Source: Bacteroidota bacterium (GTDB lineage: Bacteria; Bacteroidota; Bacteroidia; Bacteroidales; GWE2-29-8). Taken from it: a stretch of DNA of 33,499 nt. The stretch is taken from the NCBI GenBank assembly GCA_030706235.1, contig JAUZOY010000005.1, positions 1 to 33,499 on the forward strand, given 5' to 3'. Every line of letters starts with the position of its first letter. Within the stretch, counting starts at the first letter, position 1. Below the pieces are notes generated by a model. The model did not search any database and was not told the DNA's origin. It saw only the letters and a program-made list of their open reading frames with translations. Positions 7,692-33,499 of the stretch are shown here, piece after piece. A program made the translations under genes and the position numbers.

Positions 7692-10600
7692 GGAGTAGGA
7701 AGCGGGAATAATAAAAATAAAGAATACAATATAACCTGCTATGAACCAAGTATTGCATATGGAGGAGACGATGATGGAGGAAAATCATCAGATATAATAC
7801 AAGTAACATGTCCTTTATTACTTGATATATCTCATGGAGGATATGATGATAGTCTGACATGGAAGGGTAAAATAAATAATATAGTATGTATTACACCAAA
7901 TTTAGCATATGGAAATGTTTCAGATGGTTATACATCATCAGTTTTGAATTTAAAAATTTGTTCATTACCACCTAATATATCAATAGGAGGTAAAAATGAT
8001 GGGTATTCAACGAACAGTACAATGTTACTTGGAGCATGTATTGAACCACTTGCAGTTGGAGGGTATAGTGATGGGACATATCAATCAACAGTAACAATAT
8101 GTTTGAATGATAATAATATAGGATTAGGGGGAAATGGAGACGGTTGCAATACAAATGGTTTATTATTAACAGATAATGCATGTAATCAATATGTATTTGG
8201 AGGGAATAGTGATGGTTATTCGGAAATCAATCTTTTACAAAAAATTTGTATAGAGCCAACGGTAGCGTATGGAGGAAATGGTGAAGGTTCGTCTTTTGGT
8301 GTAATGGCAGTGAAAAGTTGTATTGAACCTTCAATAGCAACTGGGGGAACAGGGGATGGATATATAGTTTCCATATGCCAACAAATAACATGTGCAGAGC
8401 CATCAATAGCCTATGGAGGGGTGGAAGACGGACATAATAAAGGTAAGATAACAAATATAGTATGTTTTGAGCCGAGTATTGCATATGGTGGTGATGGAAG
8501 AGGATATTATGAATCAGTAAAAATTGTAAAAATATGTACTGAGCCGACTATAGCTTATGGAGGGGATAATGATGGTTATAGTTACAATGAATTGGATAAT
8601 AAGAATTGTAATGAACCAACAATAGCATATGGTGGTGATGGAATAGGGTATAATGAATCAGTACAAATTGTAAAAATATGTACTGAGCCAAATATAGCAT
8701 TTGGTGGAAATATAGATGGTTTTTCAACGGGAACATTAAATGTAATAATTTGTACTGAGTCTAATATAGCGTATGGCGGGATAAAGACAGGATATTCAAA
8801 AGGGAAATTGTTAAATATAACCTGCAATGAACCAATGATAGCCTATGGTGGTGATGGAGATGGATTTAATAATTCAGTAATAAGTTTGAAGAATTGTGGT
8901 GTACTGCCAAATATCGCAATAGGAGGAGATAAAGACGGATCAGGAGAAAATAATGCTGAATATTGTATAAATGCAGATAATTTGGCCGCAGGAGGAACAT
9001 CTGATGGCGGTTCAACAGGTATATTAACAGGAGTAAACTGTTTTGCGGTAGGTCTTGTAGGATTCGGAGGATATGGTGACGGTATTTCGCAATCATACCT
9101 GCAGACGTGTTATAATGAACAGGATTTAGGAAAGGGAGGTATATCTGATGGTACAGGAACTTCAATATTAAATTTGAAAGTTTGCCCGATGACAGGATTT
9201 ATGCTTGGAGGAGTAAGTGATGGATCTAATACGAGTATGTTAAATCTGACAGTATGTCTTGATCCAAGTTTAGGAATAGGAGGAAATGAAGATGGATACA
9301 CTAAAGGCAGATTATCAAATATTACTTGTATAGAACCAAGTATAGCAACCGGAGGAGACGCAGATGGGTATTATCAAAGTATATTGCAGTTAAATAATTG
9401 CATTACTGCTGATCCGTCAATTGGAGGCATAGGAGATGGATTAAGTAATGGAATACTATCAGCCAATGTCTGTGTAGAACCAACAATTTCATACGGAGGA
9501 ATTGAAGATGGACATTCAAAAGGTAGGTTAATTCAAAGTCCATGTTTCGAACCTAGTATAGCCTATGGAGGAAATTATGATGGAATGTCTACAGGTTTAT
9601 TAAATTTGGTAAACTGTAGTTTTTCCAATATTGCAATGGGAGGAGATGAAGACGGATATGTGAAAGGCAGGTTGTCAAATATAACATGTTTCGAACCAAG
9701 TATAGCCTATGGAGGTGATTATGAAGGAAGTTCAACAGGCATTATAAGTCAGATTGTATGTATTGAGCCTACAATAGCCTATGGAGGTAATTTTGAAGGG
9801 ACTTCAGCAGGAATATTAAATCAATTGGCTTGTATAGTTGATTCAAATATAGCAAAAGGAGGTTTTGCAGATGGAAATGCAAAGGGTAGACTTATTAATA
9901 ATGTATGTACAGAGCCGAATCTTGCTTTGGGTGGAAATTATGATGGAGGCAATGAGAACAATAGAATTGTAATAACATGTCCGGTACCACCAAATATTGC
10001 TGTGGGAGGAATAGATGCAGGTTTTGCAGAATCAGACAGGCTATATTGTATAGATGGAAATACTATAGCAAAGGGAGGTGATTATGATGGTTATTCAGAA
10101 TCAACGTTATCTCAGTTAAATTGTTTCTTGGTTTTGAATTTTGCTGTAGGAGGGAATCAGGATGGGAATAATGAAGGATATCTGAAGTATTGTTATAATG
10201 AACAGGATTTAGCAAAGGGAGGAAATTATGATGGTACGTTTAACCGGGATTTAATACTAAATCCATGTCCTGCATTACCAAATATGGCACAAGGAGGAAT
10301 CAGTGACGGAAGTTCTACAGGAATTTTGAATCAAACAATTTGTTACACAGGTCTGGGAATATCATTAGGAGGTAATTATGATGGTACTCAGACGTCTATA
10401 TTACAGCAAATTACTTGCATATTAGATAATGTATCATACGGAGGATTTGAGGATGGGCATAGTAAAGGAAGAGTAAGCAATATAATATGTATAGAGCCTA
10501 CAATAGCATTGGGCGGATTAATGGATGGAACCGGAGAAAATGATTTGATACAGAAAACATGTGTGGATTTCAGCAATACATTGGGTGGAGATGACGGAGG

Positions 10601-13600
10601 AAATTCTGAAGGTGATTTAAGTCAGTTAAATTGTAATCAACTTAATATATCATATGGTGGTAATAGTGACGGATATTATACAGGTAATATTAATATGATT
10701 ATATGTAGTGAACCAAATCTTGCAATTGGAGGAAATACTGACGGATATTTCAGTAGCGAAATTGATTTAAAGAATTGTAATGAACCAAATATTGCTTCAG
10801 GTGGATATAACGACGGAAATACAAAATCAAGAATATCAAACGTAGCATGCATAGAACCAAGCATTGCAACAGGTGGAGATAATGATGGCTATAGAGAAAA
10901 GATTTTGAATCAAAATGTTTGTAATGAACCAAATATGGCAATAGGTGGAAATAGTGACGGATATTATAATAGTGAGCTTGACCTTAAAAATTGTAATGAA
11001 CCAAACATATCATATGGTGGAAATTATGAAGGTACTTCGATAGGGGTATTAAATCAGAAAATTTGTATAGAACCAATCATTGCTTATGGAGGAGATGGGG
11101 ACGGATATATTGAAAATGAGCTTGATATTGCAAACTGTGAATCACTTAATCTTGCAAGCGGAGGATTCGATGATGGGAATGCAAAAGGAAGACTATCCAA
11201 TGTTGCATGTACTATTATTAATCTGGCAGTAGGAGGTTTGTATGATGGTTATAGTGAGCAATCAATAAAATTATGTTATAATGATCAGGATTTGGCTAAG
11301 GGAGGAAACGGTGATGGAATAAATCAGGGATTATTAAATCAAAAGACATGTACTTATGAAAATCTTGCATTTGGAGGTAATGAAGATGGTTATCTGGTTA
11401 GTACACTGAAAATTTGTTTTAATGAACAGGATATTGCCAAAGGAGGTAATTGGGATGGGTATTTTACCGGGGAAAAGGATCTTATTGTTTGTCCTGTTCC
11501 TGAAAATATTGCCTTAGGAGGAGATATTGACGGGTATTCAAGTAATATGTTAACATTAAAATTTTGTGCATTTGATGTGATTTATGTGGGAGGAAACAGT
11601 GATGGAAGTAATCAATTTGATATGATAAATATTGCATGTCCTGTAACTAATATAGCAATTGGAGGGGATGGAGAAGGATATAGTGAAGATATCTTGAAAT
11701 TAAAGAATTGTGTTGATACCAGTCTTGCAATTGGAGGAATAAGCGGATCAATAAAAGGGAGATTGAATCAGAGAGTTTGTATGGATCCCGAAATAGCAAA
11801 AGGAGGAATCGATGCAGGATATTCAGAAGGAGAATTGAATCTTATAGATTGTAATCTTTTAAATATTTCATTAGGTGGAGATCATGATGGATATAGCAAA
11901 GGAAAGTTATCAAATATAGTTTGTATAGAACCATCAATAGCTTTAGGAGGAGATAATGACGGATATTCAGATGGAGATTTAGGTTTAATGATTTGTACAG
12001 ATCCTGTATTGGCAATAGGGGGAAACAGTGACGGTTTTAATATTGGAGAGCTTGATCTTAATAATTGCAATGATCCTAATCTTGCTTCAGGAGGTATAAA
12101 TGACGGTCATGCAAAAGGAAAGTTAATTAATAATGTATGTATTGAACCAAGCATCGCAATGGGAGGAGATAATGACGGATATTCAGACGGAGACCTGTCA
12201 TTATTACCATGTATTGAGCCAACGATATCATATGGAGGAACTGAGGATGGTTATACAAAGGGAAGACTGATTAACAAAATATGTTTTGAACCTACAATTG
12301 CTTTTGGAGGGAATGCAGATGGATTTAATAATAATACTGTAACATTGGTTGCCTGTGAAGCTGAAGCAAATCTTGCTTTAGGTGGCGATAAAGATGGATT
12401 TTCTACAAATACACTTTCTCAATTAACATGTGTTGATCCATTAGCAATAGGAGGAAGTGATGATGGTAATAATACATCAGTACTTAATTTAACAAATTGT
12501 ATAGGGAATATAGCAATCGGTGGTAATTCAGATGGATATTTTACCGGCAGTATTGTAGATTCAGTATGTTTATCTTTGAATTTTGCAGTTGGCGGTAATT
12601 CTGACGGATCAAATACCAGTGAAATTGATTTGTTGATGTGTACAGGAAATCTTGCATTAGGTGGAAATCAGGATGGATTTTCAATAAACACTCTTGCGTT
12701 AATCGGTCCATGTATAGATGCAGTATCAATGGGAGGTAATGATGATGGTTCAATTGAAGCAAGACTTAATACTTCAAATTGTTTATCACTGAATACCGCA
12801 TTCGGAGGTAATGAAGATGGTAATGCAGAAAATGACCTTAATCTTTTAGTCTGTACACCACCTGAAAACCTCTCAAAAGGAGGTATATATGACGGAACAT
12901 CATTCAATACTGTTTACTTAAATCCATGTACATTTGTTGATCCATTAGCTTCAGGTGGTTCGTCAGATGGATATTATGTAAGCGATCTGAAGCAATTAAC
13001 CTGTACAATAGAAAATATTGCATTAGGTGGTGGAGAAGATATGCATGATTATGAAGGAGATTTGAATCTGCTGGCATGTTCAGTATTCAGTATATCTTAT
13101 GGAAGTACAGAAGATGGTTATAAAGAAGGGCTATTGAGTCAGTTAAATTGTAATCAGCCTAATATAGCAATGGGAGGAAATGAAGACGGCTATTCAGATG
13201 GTGATTTGAATTTATTAATATGTACAATACCAAATCTTGCAATGGGAGGAAATGAAGACGGCTATTCAGATGGTGATTTACTTCAGACCTCATGCAATAT
13301 ATTTAATCCTTCGTTCGGTGGTATAAGTGATGGGTATAATCAAGTACAGTTGGATCAGAAAACATGTGTTGAAGTCAATATAGCATATGGAGGAAATGAA
13401 GATGGCTATTCAGACGGAGATTTGAACTTAATTACATGTACATTACCAAATGTTGCATTAGGAGGTACTCCTGGTGACGGATACGCTGTAAACGGAATGA
13501 ATCTTATAAATTGTACAGAGCCGAATATTGCATTAGGAGATATAAATGATGGATATAAAGAAAGTAATCTAAGTCTGATATCATGTAATCTTCTCAATCT

Positions 13601-15170
13601 TGCACTTGGAGGAGATGGAGATGGATATAAGGAAAGTAACCAGATACAGGTTAACTGTGGCATGCAAAACCTCGCACTTGGAGGAAATGAAGATGGATAT
13701 GAAGAAGTTAATTTGCCAACAGGAAACTGTGTTTCATTAAATCTTGCAATAGGAGGAAATGAAGATGGATATGAAGAATTGTTATTACAGCAAGCTCCTT
13801 GTGCGCCTGAACCAAATCTTGCAGCCGGAGGATCAGATGATGGTTATAATGAATCAGCAATGATTTTAACAACATGTAATGATAATGTTTCGCTGGGTGG
13901 TAATAACGATGGAAATTCAGAGAATAATTTATTACAAATGATTTGTTTAGGCAATCTTGCAGTTGGAGGTAATGAAGATGGGGGATCAGAAAATGATATA
14001 ATATTATTGAACTGTAATGATAATGTTGCAGTAGGAGGGAATAATGACGGATATTCTGAAGGTTCATATTTACCTGTAATATGTGCAGAACCTAATATTG
14101 CATTGGGAGGTTGGGTGCATGATGGTTATGCTCAAGGGTCTGTTCAACTTTGTTATAATGATCAGGATATAGCAAAAGGTGGAGTAGATGCAGGATATTC
14201 AGAAGGGGATATTAATTTAGGTCCATGTCCGAATTTAAATATTGCAACAGGAGGTAACCAGGATGGTTCGTCAGAAACCGATCTGAATATGATAACATGT
14301 CCTGCACTGGAAAATATTGCAAAAGGAGATATATCTGATGGCTATGGAGTTTCAGTAGTAAATCTCAATCCATGTACATTTGTTGATCCGTTAGCTTCAG
14401 GAGGCTCTGAAGATGGAACATCATTATCAGGATTGAATTTATTAACATGTACTACAATAAATATTGCATATGGAGGAAATGAAGATGGAAATTCAGAAGA
14501 AGATATCATGCAATTAACATGTGTTGATCCGAATATTTCATTGGGAGGAATATATGATGGGTATAGTGAAAATGCTCTGAATCAGACAAATTGCAATCAG
14601 GTGAACATTGCCTATGGAGGAATAAATGAAGGATTTGATATAAAGACCTTAGTTTTGCTTACATGTACTATTCCTAATTTAGCATATGGAGGAGATGTGG
14701 ATGGATATTCAGATGGAGACTTGTCACAACTCACATGTGTAGAACCGGTAATATCATATGGTGGTGTTCATGACGGATATTCTAAGGGTAAGTTGTCAAA
14801 TATAGTATGTACTGATGTAAATTTCTATGTTGGTGGTATACAGGATGGCAATTCAGAAAATGATCTGAACTTATTAAATTGTAATGCGATGAATATTGCA
14901 CATGGAGGAGATGCAGATGGACATAATACTATTACATTAAATTTATTGACCTGCACTATTCCTAATATTGCATTAGGAGGTAATGAAGATGGATATGAAA
15001 ATATAGATCTTATATTAAATCCGTGTCTGATTCCGAATTTAGCAAAAGGAGGAAATAATGACGGTCAGGATTACGAAGTATTGAATCTATTAACTTGTCC
15101 TATGTGGAACATTTCATATGGAGGATTAGTAGACGGCTATTCACAGGGATTACTTACATTGAAATATTGT
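6390..15170 (+). repeat. giant protein repeat array, about 121 consecutive 23-25-residue units
   Basis: By hand I divided the translation into about 121 consecutive units, mostly 24 residues (72 bp), with consensus AxGGNxDGYSxxxLxLxxC followed by xEPNI or similar. Almost every unit has exactly one cysteine at the same place. Two more units occur at about 16220-16360. DNA copies are mostly diverged, but some neighbours are nearly identical (a 41-base exact repeat at 13167 and 13239). Certain unit types recur, such as those with KGRLSNI before the cysteine or CYNEQDLAKGG. The regular period suggests a solenoid or beta-helix, which is inference. Confidence 0.93.
7689..7691 (+). other. in-frame TGA nonsense codon at a conserved glycine of the repeat
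   Basis: The frame reads TCA TAT TGA GGA GTA GGA, where sister units read TAT GGA GGA (YGG). A single G-to-T change from GGA explains it. All 84 codons from 7692 to 7943 are open in the same frame and encode further typical units (CYEPSIAYGGDDDGG). This makes 6309-17951 one 3881-codon gene split by one stop codon. Confidence 0.9.
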
Positions 15171-17951
15171 CAGTCTCCATATCACTTCAGGACAATTGCC
15201 AGCGGTACATGGAGTGACCCATCAATTTGGCAGGTAAGTACCGATTCGGTTGTCTGGGGCGTTTATCCTTGTTATTATCCGCCAAACTCTTCAGATTCAA
15301 GTATTGTAATTAGAAGTCCTCATAGTGTAAATGTAGGCCAAAATGTTAGTGCAGATCAATTATATGTTATGTCCGGAGCATTTTTAAATATTAATCCTGG
15401 TAAGACATTAACTATTACAGATGGCAGTAAAGGAACAGATATGAAAGTATATGGTAAGGTAATAAATAACGGAGGACAGATAGTTGCATCAGATACAAGT
15501 GTAGTAAGGATATATTTCAGGAATGGAAGTGAATATACACATCAATGTGATGGTCTGGCAATACCAAAAGTTGTATGGGAAACAGGTTCATTGTGTCATG
15601 TTACAGGAGTATCAGGTGCATATCCGAGTGGTATGAATCAATATTTCTATGACTTTATGTGGGATAATACATCCCCAACTGGTAATATGAATGGTCATAT
15701 GTATGTTTCTCATAACTTTAATATAAAACAAAAGAATTTCAATACAGGTACTGATACCATAACTCTTGGAAATGATGCAACAATAACAAATGAAACAGCT
15801 AATAGAGAAGTAATAGGAAATATTGAAATAAAAATGTTAGTTGGAACTAATGCATCCTCATTCGGTGGATTAGGATTAAGTATTGCTGCTGGAACAGATA
15901 ATCTTGATAGTGTGAGAATAATAAGAAGAACCGGTGCAGCGCTTGGAATAATAAATTCTTGGGGAAAAACTTCAATAGCAAGGAATTATAGGATTATTAC
16001 AAAGAATTCACCATCAGTAAAGAGAACACTTACATTTAACTGGTTTACAACAGATGATAATGCAAAAGATATGACAAAGATGACTTTATGGAAATCAGTT
16101 AACAATGGATTTATATTTGATTCTATAGGAGGAATCTGGAATGTAAGCGGAACAAGAAGTCTAACATGTAAAACATTTACTACTGGTGATTGGACAGCAA
16201 GTGATATTGTTCCTCCGTCTATCAATTTAGGAATTGGGGGAATTAATGATGGACAGGATCTTGGAAATACATCATCAGTAGTATGTCCTCCTCCTGTAAA
16301 TATTGCTTTGGGAGGTATCTATGATGGAACTTCATATAATTCAATTTTCTCTAAAGCTTGTTGGACAGCAATGCATTACAGAACAAAGAGCAGTGGTGTA
16401 TGGAGTAATCCTGCAATTTGGGAAGTAAGTACGGATTCACTGAATTGGGGAATTTATCCGTCTAATTTTATACCAAGTAGTGCAGATTCTAGTATTACGA
16501 TCAGACATAATATAACTCTTGCTCAGGATACAACTGCAGATCAGTTGTGGATTATGCCAGGAGATACATTTACCATTAATTCAGGTGTAAAACTTAAGAT
16601 TGCATCAAATATAAAGAATGACGGATTGAATGTAGAAGGAACGGTTTATAATAAAGGAAATGTTATTCTAAATCCTGGCGCAGTAATGAATGTTAAAGGA
16701 GGAGGACAATATAATCATAATATTGATGGAGGATCAATACCTATTGCAAATTGGAGTAAATATTCTTTGTGTAATATAACGGGTGTTACTACAAAATATC
16801 CTTCAAATATGAATCAGACATTCTATAATTTATGGTGGAATAATAATCAGCCATCATCAACTGATTCAATAATTGGAAACATGCATATTGCAGATACCTT
16901 ATGGATTAAGCAGACTAATATGAATACTGGTAAAGATACTATATTCCTTGATACGCTTGCTACATTGTTAGGAGAAACAAGCATTAATCATATAATCGGA
17001 ACGGTATCAAAGAGAGAAAATGTAGGTTGGGGATCTTTCAATGAAATGGGATTAAACATACAAAATACAAGTAATAATCTTGGTTATGTTTCAGTTATCA
17101 GAAAGAGTGGGCCAAAGGGAATAGTAGATATTGGTGGTAAGACATCAATTGCAGCAAAATGGAGGATAAAAGTAGATAATCAACCAACAAGTGGAGTAAA
17201 TGTAAAATTCTTCTGGTATCCGTTTGAAGATAATGGAAAAGATACCACAAATATGATGTTATGGAAGTCAACGAATGGAGGATTGACATATAAGACAGTT
17301 CAATCGGGATATAATGTATCAAATACTAATCCAAGAAATGTTACATATTTAACTACATCATTCTCTGACTGGACAGTAAGTGATGAGGATCCATTACCAA
17401 TAACTTTACTTGTATTTAATGCAAAGAGAAATGGAAAGGTTGTAGATCTTTCCTGGACTACTGCTTCTGAAATCAATAATGATTTCTTTACGATTGAAAG
17501 ATCCAGAGATATGTCAGATTTCGAAGGAATAATTAATATTAAAGGAAAAGGAACCACTTCAGTAATGAATTATTATGCATCAACAGATGAAAATCCATTT
17601 AAAGGTATTTCATACTATAGGTTGAAGCAGACAGATTTTGACGGTAAATATACATATAGTGATATAAGAATGGTCAGATTTGAAGATGGTACGTTTGGAA
17701 TATCAAAACCATTCCCGAACCCGGCTTCTGATAAAATTTCATTTATAATTAAATCTGAAGAAGGTGATAACTTGAATATCTCAATTTATGATCAACTTGG
17801 TCAGCTTATATTAACAAAGAATAATTATGAAGTAAAACCGGGTGAACAGGTTGTAACTACTGACGTTAGTACATTGAGTAATGGAATATATAATATTGTG
17901 ATAAAGGGAAGAATAGTTTCAAATTCTTCAAGATTTACACTTATGAAATAA
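7944..17951 (+). CDS. main part of giant GGxxDG/Cys repeat protein with T9SS type A sorting tail
   Basis: The ORF track begins at a TTG at 7944, but the same frame is open back to the TGA at 7689, so this is the 3' part of the gene starting at 6309. Layout of the 3335 residues: about 100 repeat units (1 to ~2409); a beta-rich module (~2412-2755, HFRTIASGTWSDPSIW); two repeat units (~2760-2808); a second copy of the module (~2810-3150, HYRTKSSGVWSNPAIW); a fibronectin III-like segment typical of T9SS cargo (~3153-3245, VDLSWTTASEINNDFFTIER, YYRLKQTDFDGKY); and a Por-type C-terminal sorting domain (~3253-3335, FPNPASDKI, LGQLILTK, LSNGIYNIVIKG). T9SS would carry it across the outer membrane and anchor or release it, but this fragment alone lacks a signal peptide. 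Adhesin or structural surface roles are guesses. A strong terminator follows at 17988. Confidence 0.88.
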   Translation: MNLKICSLPPNISIGGKNDGYSTNSTMLLGACIEPLAVGGYSDGTYQSTVTICLNDNNIGLGGNGDGCNTNGLLLTDNACNQYVFGGNSDGYSEINLLQKICIEPTVAYGGNGEGSSFGVMAVKSCIEPSIATGGTGDGYIVSICQQITCAEPSIAYGGVEDGHNKGKITNIVCFEPSIAYGGDGRGYYESVKIVKICTEPTIAYGGDNDGYSYNELDNKNCNEPTIAYGGDGIGYNESVQIVKICTEPNIAFGGNIDGFSTGTLNVIICTESNIAYGGIKTGYSKGKLLNITCNEPMIAYGGDGDGFNNSVISLKNCGVLPNIAIGGDKDGSGENNAEYCINADNLAAGGTSDGGSTGILTGVNCFAVGLVGFGGYGDGISQSYLQTCYNEQDLGKGGISDGTGTSILNLKVCPMTGFMLGGVSDGSNTSMLNLTVCLDPSLGIGGNEDGYTKGRLSNITCIEPSIATGGDADGYYQSILQLNNCITADPSIGGIGDGLSNGILSANVCVEPTISYGGIEDGHSKGRLIQSPCFEPSIAYGGNYDGMSTGLLNLVNCSFSNIAMGGDEDGYVKGRLSNITCFEPSIAYGGDYEGSSTGIISQIVCIEPTIAYGGNFEGTSAGILNQLACIVDSNIAKGGFADGNAKGRLINNVCTEPNLALGGNYDGGNENNRIVITCPVPPNIAVGGIDAGFAESDRLYCIDGNTIAKGGDYDGYSESTLSQLNCFLVLNFAVGGNQDGNNEGYLKYCYNEQDLAKGGNYDGTFNRDLILNPCPALPNMAQGGISDGSSTGILNQTICYTGLGISLGGNYDGTQTSILQQITCILDNVSYGGFEDGHSKGRVSNIICIEPTIALGGLMDGTGENDLIQKTCVDFSNTLGGDDGGNSEGDLSQLNCNQLNISYGGNSDGYYTGNINMIICSEPNLAIGGNTDGYFSSEIDLKNCNEPNIASGGYNDGNTKSRISNVACIEPSIATGGDNDGYREKILNQNVCNEPNMAIGGNSDGYYNSELDLKNCNEPNISYGGNYEGTSIGVLNQKICIEPIIAYGGDGDGYIENELDIANCESLNLASGGFDDGNAKGRLSNVACTIINLAVGGLYDGYSEQSIKLCYNDQDLAKGGNGDGINQGLLNQKTCTYENLAFGGNEDGYLVSTLKICFNEQDIAKGGNWDGYFTGEKDLIVCPVPENIALGGDIDGYSSNMLTLKFCAFDVIYVGGNSDGSNQFDMINIACPVTNIAIGGDGEGYSEDILKLKNCVDTSLAIGGISGSIKGRLNQRVCMDPEIAKGGIDAGYSEGELNLIDCNLLNISLGGDHDGYSKGKLSNIVCIEPSIALGGDNDGYSDGDLGLMICTDPVLAIGGNSDGFNIGELDLNNCNDPNLASGGINDGHAKGKLINNVCIEPSIAMGGDNDGYSDGDLSLLPCIEPTISYGGTEDGYTKGRLINKICFEPTIAFGGNADGFNNNTVTLVACEAEANLALGGDKDGFSTNTLSQLTCVDPLAIGGSDDGNNTSVLNLTNCIGNIAIGGNSDGYFTGSIVDSVCLSLNFAVGGNSDGSNTSEIDLLMCTGNLALGGNQDGFSINTLALIGPCIDAVSMGGNDDGSIEARLNTSNCLSLNTAFGGNEDGNAENDLNLLVCTPPENLSKGGIYDGTSFNTVYLNPCTFVDPLASGGSSDGYYVSDLKQLTCTIENIALGGGEDMHDYEGDLNLLACSVFSISYGSTEDGYKEGLLSQLNCNQPNIAMGGNEDGYSDGDLNLLICTIPNLAMGGNEDGYSDGDLLQTSCNIFNPSFGGISDGYNQVQLDQKTCVEVNIAYGGNEDGYSDGDLNLITCTLPNVALGGTPGDGYAVNGMNLINCTEPNIALGDINDGYKESNLSLISCNLLNLALGGDGDGYKESNQIQVNCGMQNLALGGNEDGYEEVNLPTGNCVSLNLAIGGNEDGYEELLLQQAPCAPEPNLAAGGSDDGYNESAMILTTCNDNVSLGGNNDGNSENNLLQMICLGNLAVGGNEDGGSENDIILLNCNDNVAVGGNNDGYSEGSYLPVICAEPNIALGGWVHDGYAQGSVQLCYNDQDIAKGGVDAGYSEGDINLGPCPNLNIATGGNQDGSSETDLNMITCPALENIAKGDISDGYGVSVVNLNPCTFVDPLASGGSEDGTSLSGLNLLTCTTINIAYGGNEDGNSEEDIMQLTCVDPNISLGGIYDGYSENALNQTNCNQVNIAYGGINEGFDIKTLVLLTCTIPNLAYGGDVDGYSDGDLSQLTCVEPVISYGGVHDGYSKGKLSNIVCTDVNFYVGGIQDGNSENDLNLLNCNAMNIAHGGDADGHNTITLNLLTCTIPNIALGGNEDGYENIDLILNPCLIPNLAKGGNNDGQDYEVLNLLTCPMWNISYGGLVDGYSQGLLTLKYCQSPYHFRTIASGTWSDPSIWQVSTDSVVWGVYPCYYPPNSSDSSIVIRSPHSVNVGQNVSADQLYVMSGAFLNINPGKTLTITDGSKGTDMKVYGKVINNGGQIVASDTSVVRIYFRNGSEYTHQCDGLAIPKVVWETGSLCHVTGVSGAYPSGMNQYFYDFMWDNTSPTGNMNGHMYVSHNFNIKQKNFNTGTDTITLGNDATITNETANREVIGNIEIKMLVGTNASSFGGLGLSIAAGTDNLDSVRIIRRTGAALGIINSWGKTSIARNYRIITKNSPSVKRTLTFNWFTTDDNAKDMTKMTLWKSVNNGFIFDSIGGIWNVSGTRSLTCKTFTTGDWTASDIVPPSINLGIGGINDGQDLGNTSSVVCPPPVNIALGGIYDGTSYNSIFSKACWTAMHYRTKSSGVWSNPAIWEVSTDSLNWGIYPSNFIPSSADSSITIRHNITLAQDTTADQLWIMPGDTFTINSGVKLKIASNIKNDGLNVEGTVYNKGNVILNPGAVMNVKGGGQYNHNIDGGSIPIANWSKYSLCNITGVTTKYPSNMNQTFYNLWWNNNQPSSTDSIIGNMHIADTLWIKQTNMNTGKDTIFLDTLATLLGETSINHIIGTVSKRENVGWGSFNEMGLNIQNTSNNLGYVSVIRKSGPKGIVDIGGKTSIAAKWRIKVDNQPTSGVNVKFFWYPFEDNGKDTTNMMLWKSTNGGLTYKTVQSGYNVSNTNPRNVTYLTTSFSDWTVSDEDPLPITLLVFNAKRNGKVVDLSWTTASEINNDFFTIERSRDMSDFEGIINIKGKGTTSVMNYYASTDENPFKGISYYRLKQTDFDGKYTYSDIRMVRFEDGTFGISKPFPNPASDKISFIIKSEEGDNLNISIYDQLGQLILTKNNYEVKPGEQVVTTDVSTLSNGIYNIVIKGRIVSNSSRFTLMK
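15180..17391 (+). repeat. duplicated beta-rich module with intervening repeat units
   Basis: Residues encoded at about 15180-16209 and 16371-17391 are two diverged copies of one module of about 340 residues. Both begin with HxRTxxSGxWSxPxxW and VSTDSxxWGxYP, share YPSxMNQxFY, WIKQxNxNTGxDTI-like, KTSIAxxxRI and end in DWTxSD. Two 24-residue repeat units separate them. The opening resembles G8-like beta-strand modules of other T9SS proteins, which is a tentative comparison. Confidence 0.75.
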
Positions 17952-26520: not shown

Positions 26521-29154
26521 ATGAAGAAATTCTGTTTAATAATATTTTTCATTTATTTCTTTGTGCACGCATTTGCAACGCATAACAGGGCAGGTGAGAT
26601 TACATACAGGTGTCTTCATGATAGAGTTTATCAAATAACTATTATAACTTACACTTTTACAGAAAGTCCGGCCGACAGACCTACACTGGATATATTTTTT
26701 GGTGATGAAGATTCAACAGGAGCTGTTGCTACAACAATAAACAGAGTTAATGGTCCTAATGGAGATGGTGAAATAATATCAGGCACTAAGATAAAAAAGA
26801 ATATATATATAGCTAATCACACATATAATACAAATGGTGAATTTCTTATTCGTTTTGAAGATCCGAATAGAAATGCAGGAGTCATAAATATACCAAATTC
26901 TGTTGCTGTTCCATTTTATGTAGAAACCAAATTAATAATAAATCCATTTTTAGGTAGTGATAATTCTCCGGTTTTGCTTAATCCTCCAATAGATAATGCA
27001 TGTACGCATCAGATCTTTGTGCATAATCCCGGTGCATATGATCCTGATGGAGACAGTCTTACATATGATTTAATAAAATGCAAAGGAGCTGACGGAACAG
27101 ATATACCAGGTTATACATATCCTTCTGCTAACAAATCATTTAAAATTGATCATAATACCGGGACTTTGATATGGGATAGTCCGGAAATGCAGGGAGAATA
27201 CAATGTAGCAATACTTATCAGTGAATACAGGTATGGATTTTTAATTGGTTCAATTATAAGGGATATGCAGATAACTGTTGCTGATTGTAACAATCATCCG
27301 CCGGTTATAATAGCAATTAATGATACTTGTATTGAAGCCGGAACTTATTTTAACAGAAAAGTAAAAGCTTATGATACGGATCATAATTTTGTTACACTGA
27401 CATGTTCAGGAGAAGTTATCCAGAGTAAAAATGCAAACTTTACTGCTACTTCGGGAAGGGATACAGTTATATCCAATTTAACATGGCAAACACTTTGCAA
27501 AGATGTCAGAAAGCAACCTTATTTTTTCTACTTTAAAGCTGTTGATGATGGAAAACCTAATTTAATAGATTTTAAATCTTTAAGTATAACCGTAGTTTGT
27601 CCGTCAGTAAAAAATCTGAATTCTTTACCACTTGGAAATTCAATGCATCTTAACTGGAACAGAAGTGTATGTTCAGGTGGTAGAGGATATAAAATTTACA
27701 GAAGAACAGACTCATATGATTTTAAACATGGGTACTGTGAGACGGGTGTTCCTGATTATACAGGATTTAGTTTAATAGGATCAGTTAATGATTTAAATGA
27801 TACTACTTTTGTTGATAATAATAATGGAGATGGTCTTATACATGGAGTAACGTATTGTTATCTGGTAATTGTATATTATGCTGATGGTTCAGAAAGTTAT
27901 GCTTCAAATGAAACATGTAATTCACTGATTAAAGATGTGCCGGTTATAACAAATATCAGCATAAAAAGTACAGATGAGAAAAACGGATCAGTTATTGTAT
28001 CATGGACTAAACCGCAGCAAATTGATACAATAAAATTTCCTTCTCCATATAAATATCTGATTTATAGGTCTGCTGATGTTGATGGTTTTAAATCTTATAC
28101 ATTGGTTGATTCACTTAAGCATATTTCTGATACAACATTTACAAATAATAATCTTGATACCAGAAATCATAGTTACAAATTCAGGATAGATTTTTATTGT
28201 ACATCTAATTCAGTCCCATTATTTATAGGATCAACGTATAAAGCATCATCTGTTTACTTAAATATAAGTCCTACAGATCATGTACTTATTCTTAAATGGA
28301 GTGCCACAGTTCCGTGGACTAATAAAAAATATGTAATATTTAAAAAGAATGAGCAAGGGCTGTTCGATTCATTGACAACAACAATAAATACAAGTTATAC
28401 GGATTCAAATTTAATAAACAAGAAGGAATACTGTTATTATATCAAAACAATAGGTGAATATTCCGATAATACAATTTTCCATCCTTTAATCAATTTTTCA
28501 CAAATAGCATGTGAGGAGCCAATAGACAATATTCCACCTTGTCCTCCGGAATTAAAAGTGAAAGTTGATTGCAATGTACCTGAGAATGATCTATACTGGA
28601 CTAATATTGATAATAAATGTTCAAAAGATATAGCGAGTTATAAGGTATATTATAAAAATTTTAAAGATGGGGATTTTCAAAGAATTGCAACTGTTTTAAC
28701 ACGTTCAGATACTCAATATGTTCATTCTGAAAATAAAACAATAGCGGGATGTTATGCGATAATGGCAATTGATTCAGCTAATAATGAAAGCAGACTAAGC
28801 AATATAATCTGTATTGATATTGACAGTTGTAAAAAATGGGATTACAATCTTCCTAATGTATTTACACCGAATAATGATGGAATAAACGATTACTTCAGAC
28901 CATTTCCATATAGTTATGTTGACAAAATAAATATTAAAATATTCAATCGTTGGGGAACCCTTGTATTTCAATCGGATAATCCAGAAATTAACTGGGATGG
29001 TAAAGATCAGTTCACAAAAAGAGAATTGAGTGATGGAGTTTATTTTTACATTTGCGACATTTATGAGTTAAGATTATCAGGAGTCCAAAGCAGGACAATA
29101 AAAGGTTTTTTTCACATAATAAAAGAAAGCAATTCACATAATATAAATAATTAA
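26521..29154 (+). CDS. secreted surface protein with gliding-type (T9SS type B) C-terminal domain
   Basis: The 877-residue protein has a signal peptide (CLIIFFIYFFVHAFA, then THNRAGEITYRC, a start common among Bacteroidetes T9SS proteins). The N-terminal ~260 residues include a cadherin-like segment (NPGAYDPDGDSLTYDL). Several fibronectin III-like domains follow from about residue 365 (MHLNWNRSVCSGGRGYKIYR; VIVSWTKPQ; LILKWSA; NDLYWTN). The C-terminus from about 780 is a CHU_C/gliding-motility-associated domain: FTPNNDGINDYFRP, IKIFNRWGTLVFQS, WDGK and LSDGVYFYI. Such proteins cross the outer membrane through T9SS and attach to the cell surface; the specific role (adhesion, gliding, biofilm) is unknown. 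The stop is 11 bases before ribE, which suggests read-through transcription rather than shared function. Confidence 0.9.
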   Translation: MKKFCLIIFFIYFFVHAFATHNRAGEITYRCLHDRVYQITIITYTFTESPADRPTLDIFFGDEDSTGAVATTINRVNGPNGDGEIISGTKIKKNIYIANHTYNTNGEFLIRFEDPNRNAGVINIPNSVAVPFYVETKLIINPFLGSDNSPVLLNPPIDNACTHQIFVHNPGAYDPDGDSLTYDLIKCKGADGTDIPGYTYPSANKSFKIDHNTGTLIWDSPEMQGEYNVAILISEYRYGFLIGSIIRDMQITVADCNNHPPVIIAINDTCIEAGTYFNRKVKAYDTDHNFVTLTCSGEVIQSKNANFTATSGRDTVISNLTWQTLCKDVRKQPYFFYFKAVDDGKPNLIDFKSLSITVVCPSVKNLNSLPLGNSMHLNWNRSVCSGGRGYKIYRRTDSYDFKHGYCETGVPDYTGFSLIGSVNDLNDTTFVDNNNGDGLIHGVTYCYLVIVYYADGSESYASNETCNSLIKDVPVITNISIKSTDEKNGSVIVSWTKPQQIDTIKFPSPYKYLIYRSADVDGFKSYTLVDSLKHISDTTFTNNNLDTRNHSYKFRIDFYCTSNSVPLFIGSTYKASSVYLNISPTDHVLILKWSATVPWTNKKYVIFKKNEQGLFDSLTTTINTSYTDSNLINKKEYCYYIKTIGEYSDNTIFHPLINFSQIACEEPIDNIPPCPPELKVKVDCNVPENDLYWTNIDNKCSKDIASYKVYYKNFKDGDFQRIATVLTRSDTQYVHSENKTIAGCYAIMAIDSANNESRLSNIICIDIDSCKKWDYNLPNVFTPNNDGINDYFRPFPYSYVDKINIKIFNRWGTLVFQSDNPEINWDGKDQFTKRELSDGVYFYICDIYELRLSGVQSRTIKGFFHIIKESNSHNINN

Positions 29155-32095: not shown

Positions 32096-32806
32096 ATGAA
32101 AACAGTAATACACAAAGCAGATACCAGAGGTCATGAAACCTATGGATGGCTGAACACTTATCATACATTTAGTTTTTCGGATTATTATGATCATGAAAGA
32201 GTTCATTTTGGTGCATTAAGGGTATTGAATGATGATTATATATCTGCAGGAGCAGGATTTGGGATGCATCCTCATGATAATATGGAGATTGTAACAATAC
32301 CATTAGCAGGGGTTCTTGAGCATAAGGATAGCATGGGTCATACACAGACCATCGCAAGAAATGATGTACAGATCATCAGTGCAGGAAGCGGAATAAAACA
32401 TTCTGAATATAATAAAAGCAAAGACTCTTCCTTGAATCTTTTGCAGATTTGGGTATTTCCTAAGGAAAAAAATATAAAATCAGGTTATGATCAGGAGACT
32501 TTTAATGAAGAAGAAAGGAAAAACAAGTTTCAGATAATTGTTGCTCCGGATAATTCAATAAAATCTTTATGGATAAATCAGGATGCCTGGTTTTCAATTG
32601 GTAGTTTTGAAAAGGGCAGATCAACAAAATATGATCTGAAGATGGCAGGTAATGGGATGTATATGTTTCTGATAGAAGGAAAAATAGAAGTAAATGGTAT
32701 TGAAGCCGGAAGGAGAGACGGCATTGGTATTTGGGAAACTGATGAATTGGAAATAAATACAATAGAAGATAGTGAGATTTTGATTATTGAGGTGCCTATG
32801 AAATAG
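32096..32806 (+). CDS. pirin family protein
   Basis: The 236-residue protein is a bicupin of the pirin/YhhW family at normal length. The N-terminal cupin carries the metal ligands His58 and His60 in GMHPHDNMEIV and His102 and Glu104 in GSGIKHSEYN, matching the usual HxH...HxE set. A TYHTFSFSDYYD segment and LQIWVFPK are also typical. Some relatives oxidise quercetin; others have no known substrate, so the reaction is uncertain. The C-terminal cupin is degenerate as usual. It is transcribed alone or with the following fusion gene, which begins 24 bases after its TAG stop, the only TAG among the complete genes here. Confidence 0.94.
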   Translation: MKTVIHKADTRGHETYGWLNTYHTFSFSDYYDHERVHFGALRVLNDDYISAGAGFGMHPHDNMEIVTIPLAGVLEHKDSMGHTQTIARNDVQIISAGSGIKHSEYNKSKDSSLNLLQIWVFPKEKNIKSGYDQETFNEEERKNKFQIIVAPDNSIKSLWINQDAWFSIGSFEKGRSTKYDLKMAGNGMYMFLIEGKIEVNGIEAGRRDGIGIWETDELEINTIEDSEILIIEVPMK

Positions 32807-32829: not shown

Positions 32830-33499
32830 ATGGATTGGATAGTTGTACAGGAGATTATTGCTGGTGTTCTGATTATAGGAGCATTGTATTATGTAGGAAG
32901 AAATATATACAAAAGTTCAATTGAGAAGAAGGGTGATGTATCTGTTTGTAATAGTTGTTCAGCGGATTGTAATAAATGTCCTTTTCATACAAAAGAAAAT
33001 AAAATCAAAGTAAGTAATTTTGCCAAACAACATAAAAATAATAACGATAAAATAATGTTAGACAGATTAAATTTGGAGACAATATTGTTTCTTGATATTG
33101 AAACAGTTCCTCAATATAGTCAATACGAAGAAGTGCCTGAAAAACTCAGGTCGCTTTGGGATAAGAAAGCATCCCATATTTTGAAAAAAGAAGAAGAAAC
33201 ACCTGAGAATATTTATACCCGGGCAGGAATATTTTCTGAATTTGGAAAGATAGTATGTATATCTGTGGGAATATTTCAATTTGGAGAGGGTGGTAAGGAA
33301 AAGTTTAGGGTAAAATCATTTTATGATCATGATGAGAAAATATTGCTTACCGGATTTTCAGAAATGTTAAACAAATGTATGTCTGATAAATACAATATAC
33401 TTTGCGGACATAATATAAAGGAGTTTGATATTCCATTTATAGCAAGAAGATTAATAATAAATGGGTTGCCGTTGCCTTCGATTATTGATATTGAAGGAA
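32830..33499 (+). CDS. fusion of FeoB-associated-like Cys-rich membrane segment with PolB-type 3'-5' exonuclease (partial)
   Basis: This ORF is missing from the ORF track because it runs off the right edge. From ATG 32830 one frame stays open for 223 codons. Residues 1-28 form a membrane helix (VQEIIAGVLIIGALYYVG). A Cys-rich patch follows at 40-51 (CNSCSADCNKCP), like FeoB-associated Cys-rich proteins. After a polar linker, Met76 (33055) begins what looks like a normal start of the predicted 3'-5' exonuclease family related to PolB (DNA_pol_B_exo2): LFLDIETVP (first DEDD acidic motif), RAGIFSEFGKIVCISVG, and CGHNIKEFDIPFIARR (second motif). Usually these would be two genes. Here no stop separates them, so either a true fusion or internal initiation at 33055 is possible. 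The C-terminal catalytic motif is outside the window. Confidence 0.8.
   Translation, partial: MDWIVVQEIIAGVLIIGALYYVGRNIYKSSIEKKGDVSVCNSCSADCNKCPFHTKENKIKVSNFAKQHKNNNDKIMLDRLNLETILFLDIETVPQYSQYEEVPEKLRSLWDKKASHILKKEEETPENIYTRAGIFSEFGKIVCISVGIFQFGEGGKEKFRVKSFYDHDEKILLTGFSEMLNKCMSDKYNILCGHNIKEFDIPFIARRLIINGLPLPSIIDIEG

Follow-up and report, generated by a model that had tools for sequence, protein, structure and literature searches.

An open reading frame joining a FeoB-associated segment to a 3'-5' exonuclease at the end of a Bacteroidota contig: most likely read-through private to one genome, or an error in the sequence

The window, the whole stretch of DNA that was analysed, is one entire contig of 33,499 bases (G000:C335) from a Bacteroidales genome assembled out of metagenome data. 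At its downstream end a reading frame opens at ATG 32830 on the forward strand and continues to the contig end with no stop, with 223 codons open. This frame joins a FeoB-associated segment to an exonuclease, which ends at residue 148 of about 240 because the window is the whole contig. The fused frame starts 23 bp downstream of a pirin gene, with which it possibly shares a transcript. As sequence the fused frame is real, and the observation was confirmed. The features of the locus are as follows.

32096-32806, + strand: pirin/quercetinase-like gene, 236 aa (PF02678, 110 bits; PF17954, 91 bits)
32830-33499, + strand: fused open reading frame, ATG start, at least 223 codons, ending at the contig end
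32836-32913, + strand: predicted single membrane helix, residues 3-28 (AlphaFold2 helix, hydropathy)
32947-32979, + strand: Cys motif C-x2-C-x3-C-x2-C, residues 40-50 (Cys 40, 43, 47 and 50)
32983-33054, + strand: 24-codon linker FHTKENKIKVSNFAKQHKNNNDKI, codons 52-75, leader-like and of low confidence in the fold model
33055-33057, + strand: ATG at which the exonuclease probably starts natively; A at -3, -6 and -12
33055-33499, + strand: first 148 of about 240 residues of a DEDD 3'-5' exonuclease of the PF10108/PF03104/PF13482 type
33094-33102, + strand: exonuclease motif I, D89-I-E91, D and E invariant in 32 sequences
33409-33429, + strand: exonuclease motif II, HNIKEFD, residues 194-200, with N195, F199 and D200 invariant in 32 sequences

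By score, the N-terminal part belongs to the FeoB_associated family (PF12669; curated cut-off, 27 bits). Residues 1-75 gave 30.3 bits and the whole open reading frame gave 27.4 bits, with residues 8-51 matched. A profile of stand-alone Bacteroidales proteins, built from 26 sequences with the window sequence among them, gave this part 65 bits. The layout is that of the family, an N-terminal membrane helix followed by a Cys-rich motif (CNSCSADCNKC), and the segment resembles stand-alone FeoB-associated proteins in its one N-terminal helix, basic stretch and four Cys. Acidic residues precede the helix and K/R residues follow it, and the positive-inside rule predicts an N-out, C-in topology. The Cys spacing is common to many stand-alone PF12669 proteins of Bacteroidales and differs from the published motif spacing for FeoB-associated proteins, Cx3-5Cx2-3Cx6-8C (PMC8749426).

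FeoB-associated sequences are normally either free small open reading frames, often just downstream of feoB, or the C-terminal part of FeoB, whereas the window copy lies away from feoB and runs on into an exonuclease. A feoB gene was present within about 1.5 kb at 28 of the 30 best-scoring PF12669 loci and at 8 of the 16 loci nearest the window sequence, two sets that share several genomes. Adjacency to feoB is typical but not obligatory, and at the window locus the neighbors are pirin and the exonuclease. The feoB gene of the window genome is on another contig (C327, L190:3742-6276, - strand, 844 aa), and no PF12669 partner was found beside it. By eye, this feoB apparently carries a FeoA-like N-terminus. 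The window copy is the sole PF12669 match in its genome. Because the small open reading frame has no stop of its own, no free Cys-rich protein would come from it if the DNA is correct. Whether FeoB-associated open reading frames are translated at all has been described as an open question (PMC8749426); in an mliR mutant of Bizionia argentinensis the transcript of one of them was decreased (PMC9478572).

From residue 76 onward (residues 76-223) the protein is the beginning of a PolB/DnaQ-like DEDD 3'-5' exonuclease, with 45-57% identity to the other 31 aligned sequences and to numerous proteins of Bacteroidota. The DxE of exo I and the Asp of exo II that characterize DEDD exonucleases are present as D89, E91 and D200; the exo III Asp, for which relatives have D at alignment column 303, falls past the contig end. 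The fragment, cut by the contig end, scored below the cut-off for PF10108 and PF13482 and just above it for PF03104, while a full-length relative (L003) exceeded the cut-off for both PF10108 (66 bits) and PF13482 (58 bits). AlphaFold2 placed a helix at residues 3-28, gave residues 30-76 low confidence and modeled an exonuclease domain with confidence from about residue 77. The top Foldseek matches of this domain, the exonuclease region of DNA polymerase epsilon and RNase T (probability, 1.00; E, about 1e-3), indicate an RNase H-like fold. In sequence, in fold, in the position of its start and in the exo I and exo II residues, the window protein resembles the stand-alone PolB-related 3'-5' exonucleases of Bacteroidota; this likeness covers the N-terminal part, the C-terminal third being beyond the contig end. 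Because each segment independently matches its own family, both are real beyond chance.

Stand-alone relatives start at the equivalent of Met33055, whereas the window frame has 75 further in-frame codons before it. In the alignment of 32 sequences Met33055 falls on the start Met of the relatives. Its distance to the motif I Asp is 13 residues, which is also the mode among the 103 relatives with a Met (range, 6-16); the Met closest to 13 was picked in each relative, which biases this comparison toward 13, and the alignment shows the position directly. The native start of the exonuclease is thus probably Met33055, a conserved position. In Flavobacterium johnsoniae initiation is promoted by A at -3, -6 and -12 (PMC6847099); all three are present here, in an initiation context of the Bacteroidota kind. 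The original prediction had described a FeoB-associated-like N-terminus with a membrane helix, continuing without a stop into a PolB-type exonuclease whose usual start would be the Met at 33055. Its naming of both halves was right, and the uninterrupted frame and the start position also held; its interpretation as a whole is partly supported.

The linker between the two parts is 58% A and 7% G, compared to 21-26% G in the flanking coding parts. None of 1,782 overlapping, codon-aligned 72-nt segments from four other genes of the window was as extreme, and the leaders of two neighboring genes had similar compositions (A, 0.53; G, 0.07-0.10). The linker resembles a leader in which this frame is open by chance; at its composition the probability of 24 open codons is about 8%. 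A Lys/Asn-rich flexible tether would also give A-rich DNA, and the composition is therefore compatible with a selected fusion. A separate promoter within the linker was also considered. The sequence TAATTTTG at 33015-33022 (+ strand) fits the Bacteroidota -7 promoter box. This match is weak because the window contains 71 occurrences of the pattern, against an expected 48; no TTTG box was seen at the usual distance from it, and it was not relied on.

The same two-domain architecture was sought in other Bacteroidota, and no second case was found. When 109 exonuclease relatives were read upstream, 108 had an in-frame stop, mostly 30 codons or fewer before the aligned region, and the remaining one reached its contig end; none had a PF12669-like open reading frame upstream. 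PF12669 matches were obtained in 139 of 393 Bacteroidales genomes and, phylum-wide, in 64 of a sample of 396 (sets that overlap slightly, about 780 genomes altogether), nearly all of them in frames of 38-168 aa, and in neither set did such a frame continue into an exonuclease. Frames of 200 aa or more (in G042, G092, G256, G327, G343, G362, G516, G616 and G627) were fetched and searched as candidate further fusions, and none contained an exonuclease. The exonuclease itself was present in 228 of the 393 Bacteroidales genomes; apart from the fused one, every frame listed was 168-284 aa long. The stand-alone Cys-rich profile had no match in the fetched flanks of the 109 exonuclease loci and 19 pirin loci. 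Nor were the separate genes ever adjacent in the 51 genomes with both positions readable, as counted by hand from listings; they were on separate contigs, except in G016 and G311, where 568 kb and 1.4 Mb of one contig lay between them. The family's one other genome gave no match to the exonuclease, to PF12669 or to pirin. Among the papers searched, none mentioned PF12669 together with an exonuclease.

Other PF12669 fusions are known. Fusion of the segment to FeoB has been described (PMC8749426), and PF12669-like segments were also observed in frames of 906-970 aa in three genomes (G362:C61, L192; G042:C23, L193; G516:C1, L206), presumably FeoB C-terminal fusions. In another genome (G092, contig C12, L191:1449-2102) a membrane helix and Cys segment are fused in frame to two HMA/CopZ-like domains in a protein of 218 aa. 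The Cys segment resembles PF12669 at 20.7 bits, below the cut-off, and the gene lies directly downstream of feoB. Such cases show that the segment can be joined to other domains, as in the window frame. However, their partners are metal related, and a nuclease partner was seen only in the window; functionally, the HMA fusion is more plausible than the exonuclease join.

Several explanations for the join were weighed. If the frame had arisen from an indel within the A-rich linker, or from a misjoin close to the contig end, the two open reading frames would be separate in the organism. This artefact is a serious rival, although on balance we consider it unlikely. The linker lies 445-517 bases from the contig end in a 389-contig, 88% complete assembly, and no other part of that assembly yielded the remainder of the exonuclease. 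The other two frames of the linker hold two stops (33011 and 33053) and six stops (33000, 33015, 33033, 33039, 33042 and 33048), so that a small open reading frame shifted into either would end about 6-24 residues past the last Cys, matching the usual tail of PF12669 proteins (1-29 residues). One of these stops overlaps the exonuclease ATG (TAATG at 33053). However, the linker is without a long homopolymer (longest A run, 5), there is no direct sign of a break, and both halves are similarly AT-rich. That the upstream frame is open by chance, and is not a FeoB-associated protein, is extremely improbable. A few relatives (e.g., L094, L095 and L007) do have upstream frames open for 48-84 codons without a Cys motif, and an open frame by itself is therefore not very rare, but a chance frame was rejected on the score above the curated PF12669 cut-off, and the match to the stand-alone profile and the start Met, helix and Cys spacing in register also argue against it. 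The original prediction had offered, as its alternative, loss of a stop between two neighboring genes with internal initiation. This was the closer of its two readings. Its ancestral pair is unsupported, because the two genes are not side by side in relatives, pirin loci included; no ancestral pair with an intervening stop was found, and the adjacency is private to the window genome.

The original prediction had also raised the prospect of a new membrane-tethered exonuclease, for which the survey gave no second instance. A genuine, selected fusion in which the Cys-rich segment holds the exonuclease at the inner membrane, perhaps in an iron- or redox-responsive manner, would be consistent with the continuous frame and the four retained Cys, with a predicted topology that places the enzyme in the cytoplasm, and with the fusions of PF12669 segments to FeoB and to HMA domains. 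Set against this, the join is a singleton in all searches, the native start and its A-rich initiation context are retained at 33055, and the partners are functionally unrelated. A selected tether is thus unsupported, and we regard it as quite improbable. The more specific proposal, a cytoplasm-facing, anchored DEDD exonuclease that depends on metal or redox state through its four Cys and is accompanied by a soluble form from 33055, seems very improbable. Were the fusion genuine and in use, it would represent a nuclease placed at the membrane under a metal-responsive tag, with two products from one frame.

Because the join was in no other genome checked and the exonuclease start is kept, a fusion by read-through that is private to this genome, or an error in the sequence, is the most likely account, ahead of a new kind of membrane-bound nuclease. 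Among these possibilities we favor, as reasonably probable, a lineage-private, in-frame juxtaposition without a stop in which the exonuclease still starts at its native ATG at 33055. A stand-alone FeoB-associated open reading frame would have moved directly before the exonuclease gene, 23 bases behind pirin, with the two frames in register and no stop to separate them. The exonuclease would then initiate at ATG 33055 through an A-rich leader that doubles as linker, giving a normal soluble enzyme, while any ribosome starting at ATG 32830 would, if the DNA is correct, necessarily read through to give a membrane-anchored, cytoplasm-facing exonuclease as a by-product or second form. The two products may coexist and are not mutually exclusive. 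We infer initiation at 33055, as we do the relative amounts of the products, their topology and the lack of selection for tethering; the open frame, the membership of its halves in two families, the place of the native start, a base content like that of a leader and the absence of the fusion elsewhere are direct observations. This juxtaposition accords with an exonuclease that stands alone in 109 relatives and with PF12669 proteins that are alone, often beside feoB, or in FeoB-like frames. Against it, there is no close relative in which conservation could be checked, the sole other genome of the family missing both genes, and the window frame is the genome's only PF12669 copy yet yields no free Cys-rich product. 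The evidence mainly shows that the A-rich leader of a Bacteroidota gene can pass for an in-frame linker, and caution is warranted since gene callers that take the longest open reading frame will annotate such joins as fusion proteins.

Two further frames in the window deserve mention. A 3,335-aa open reading frame spans 10 kb at 7944-17951 (+ strand). The other, at 26521-29154 (+ strand), encodes an 877-aa secreted-looking protein whose C-terminal end, NVFTPNNDGINDYFRPF..., resembles by eye the C-terminal sorting domain, of the gliding-motility type, that serves type IX secretion in Bacteroidota.
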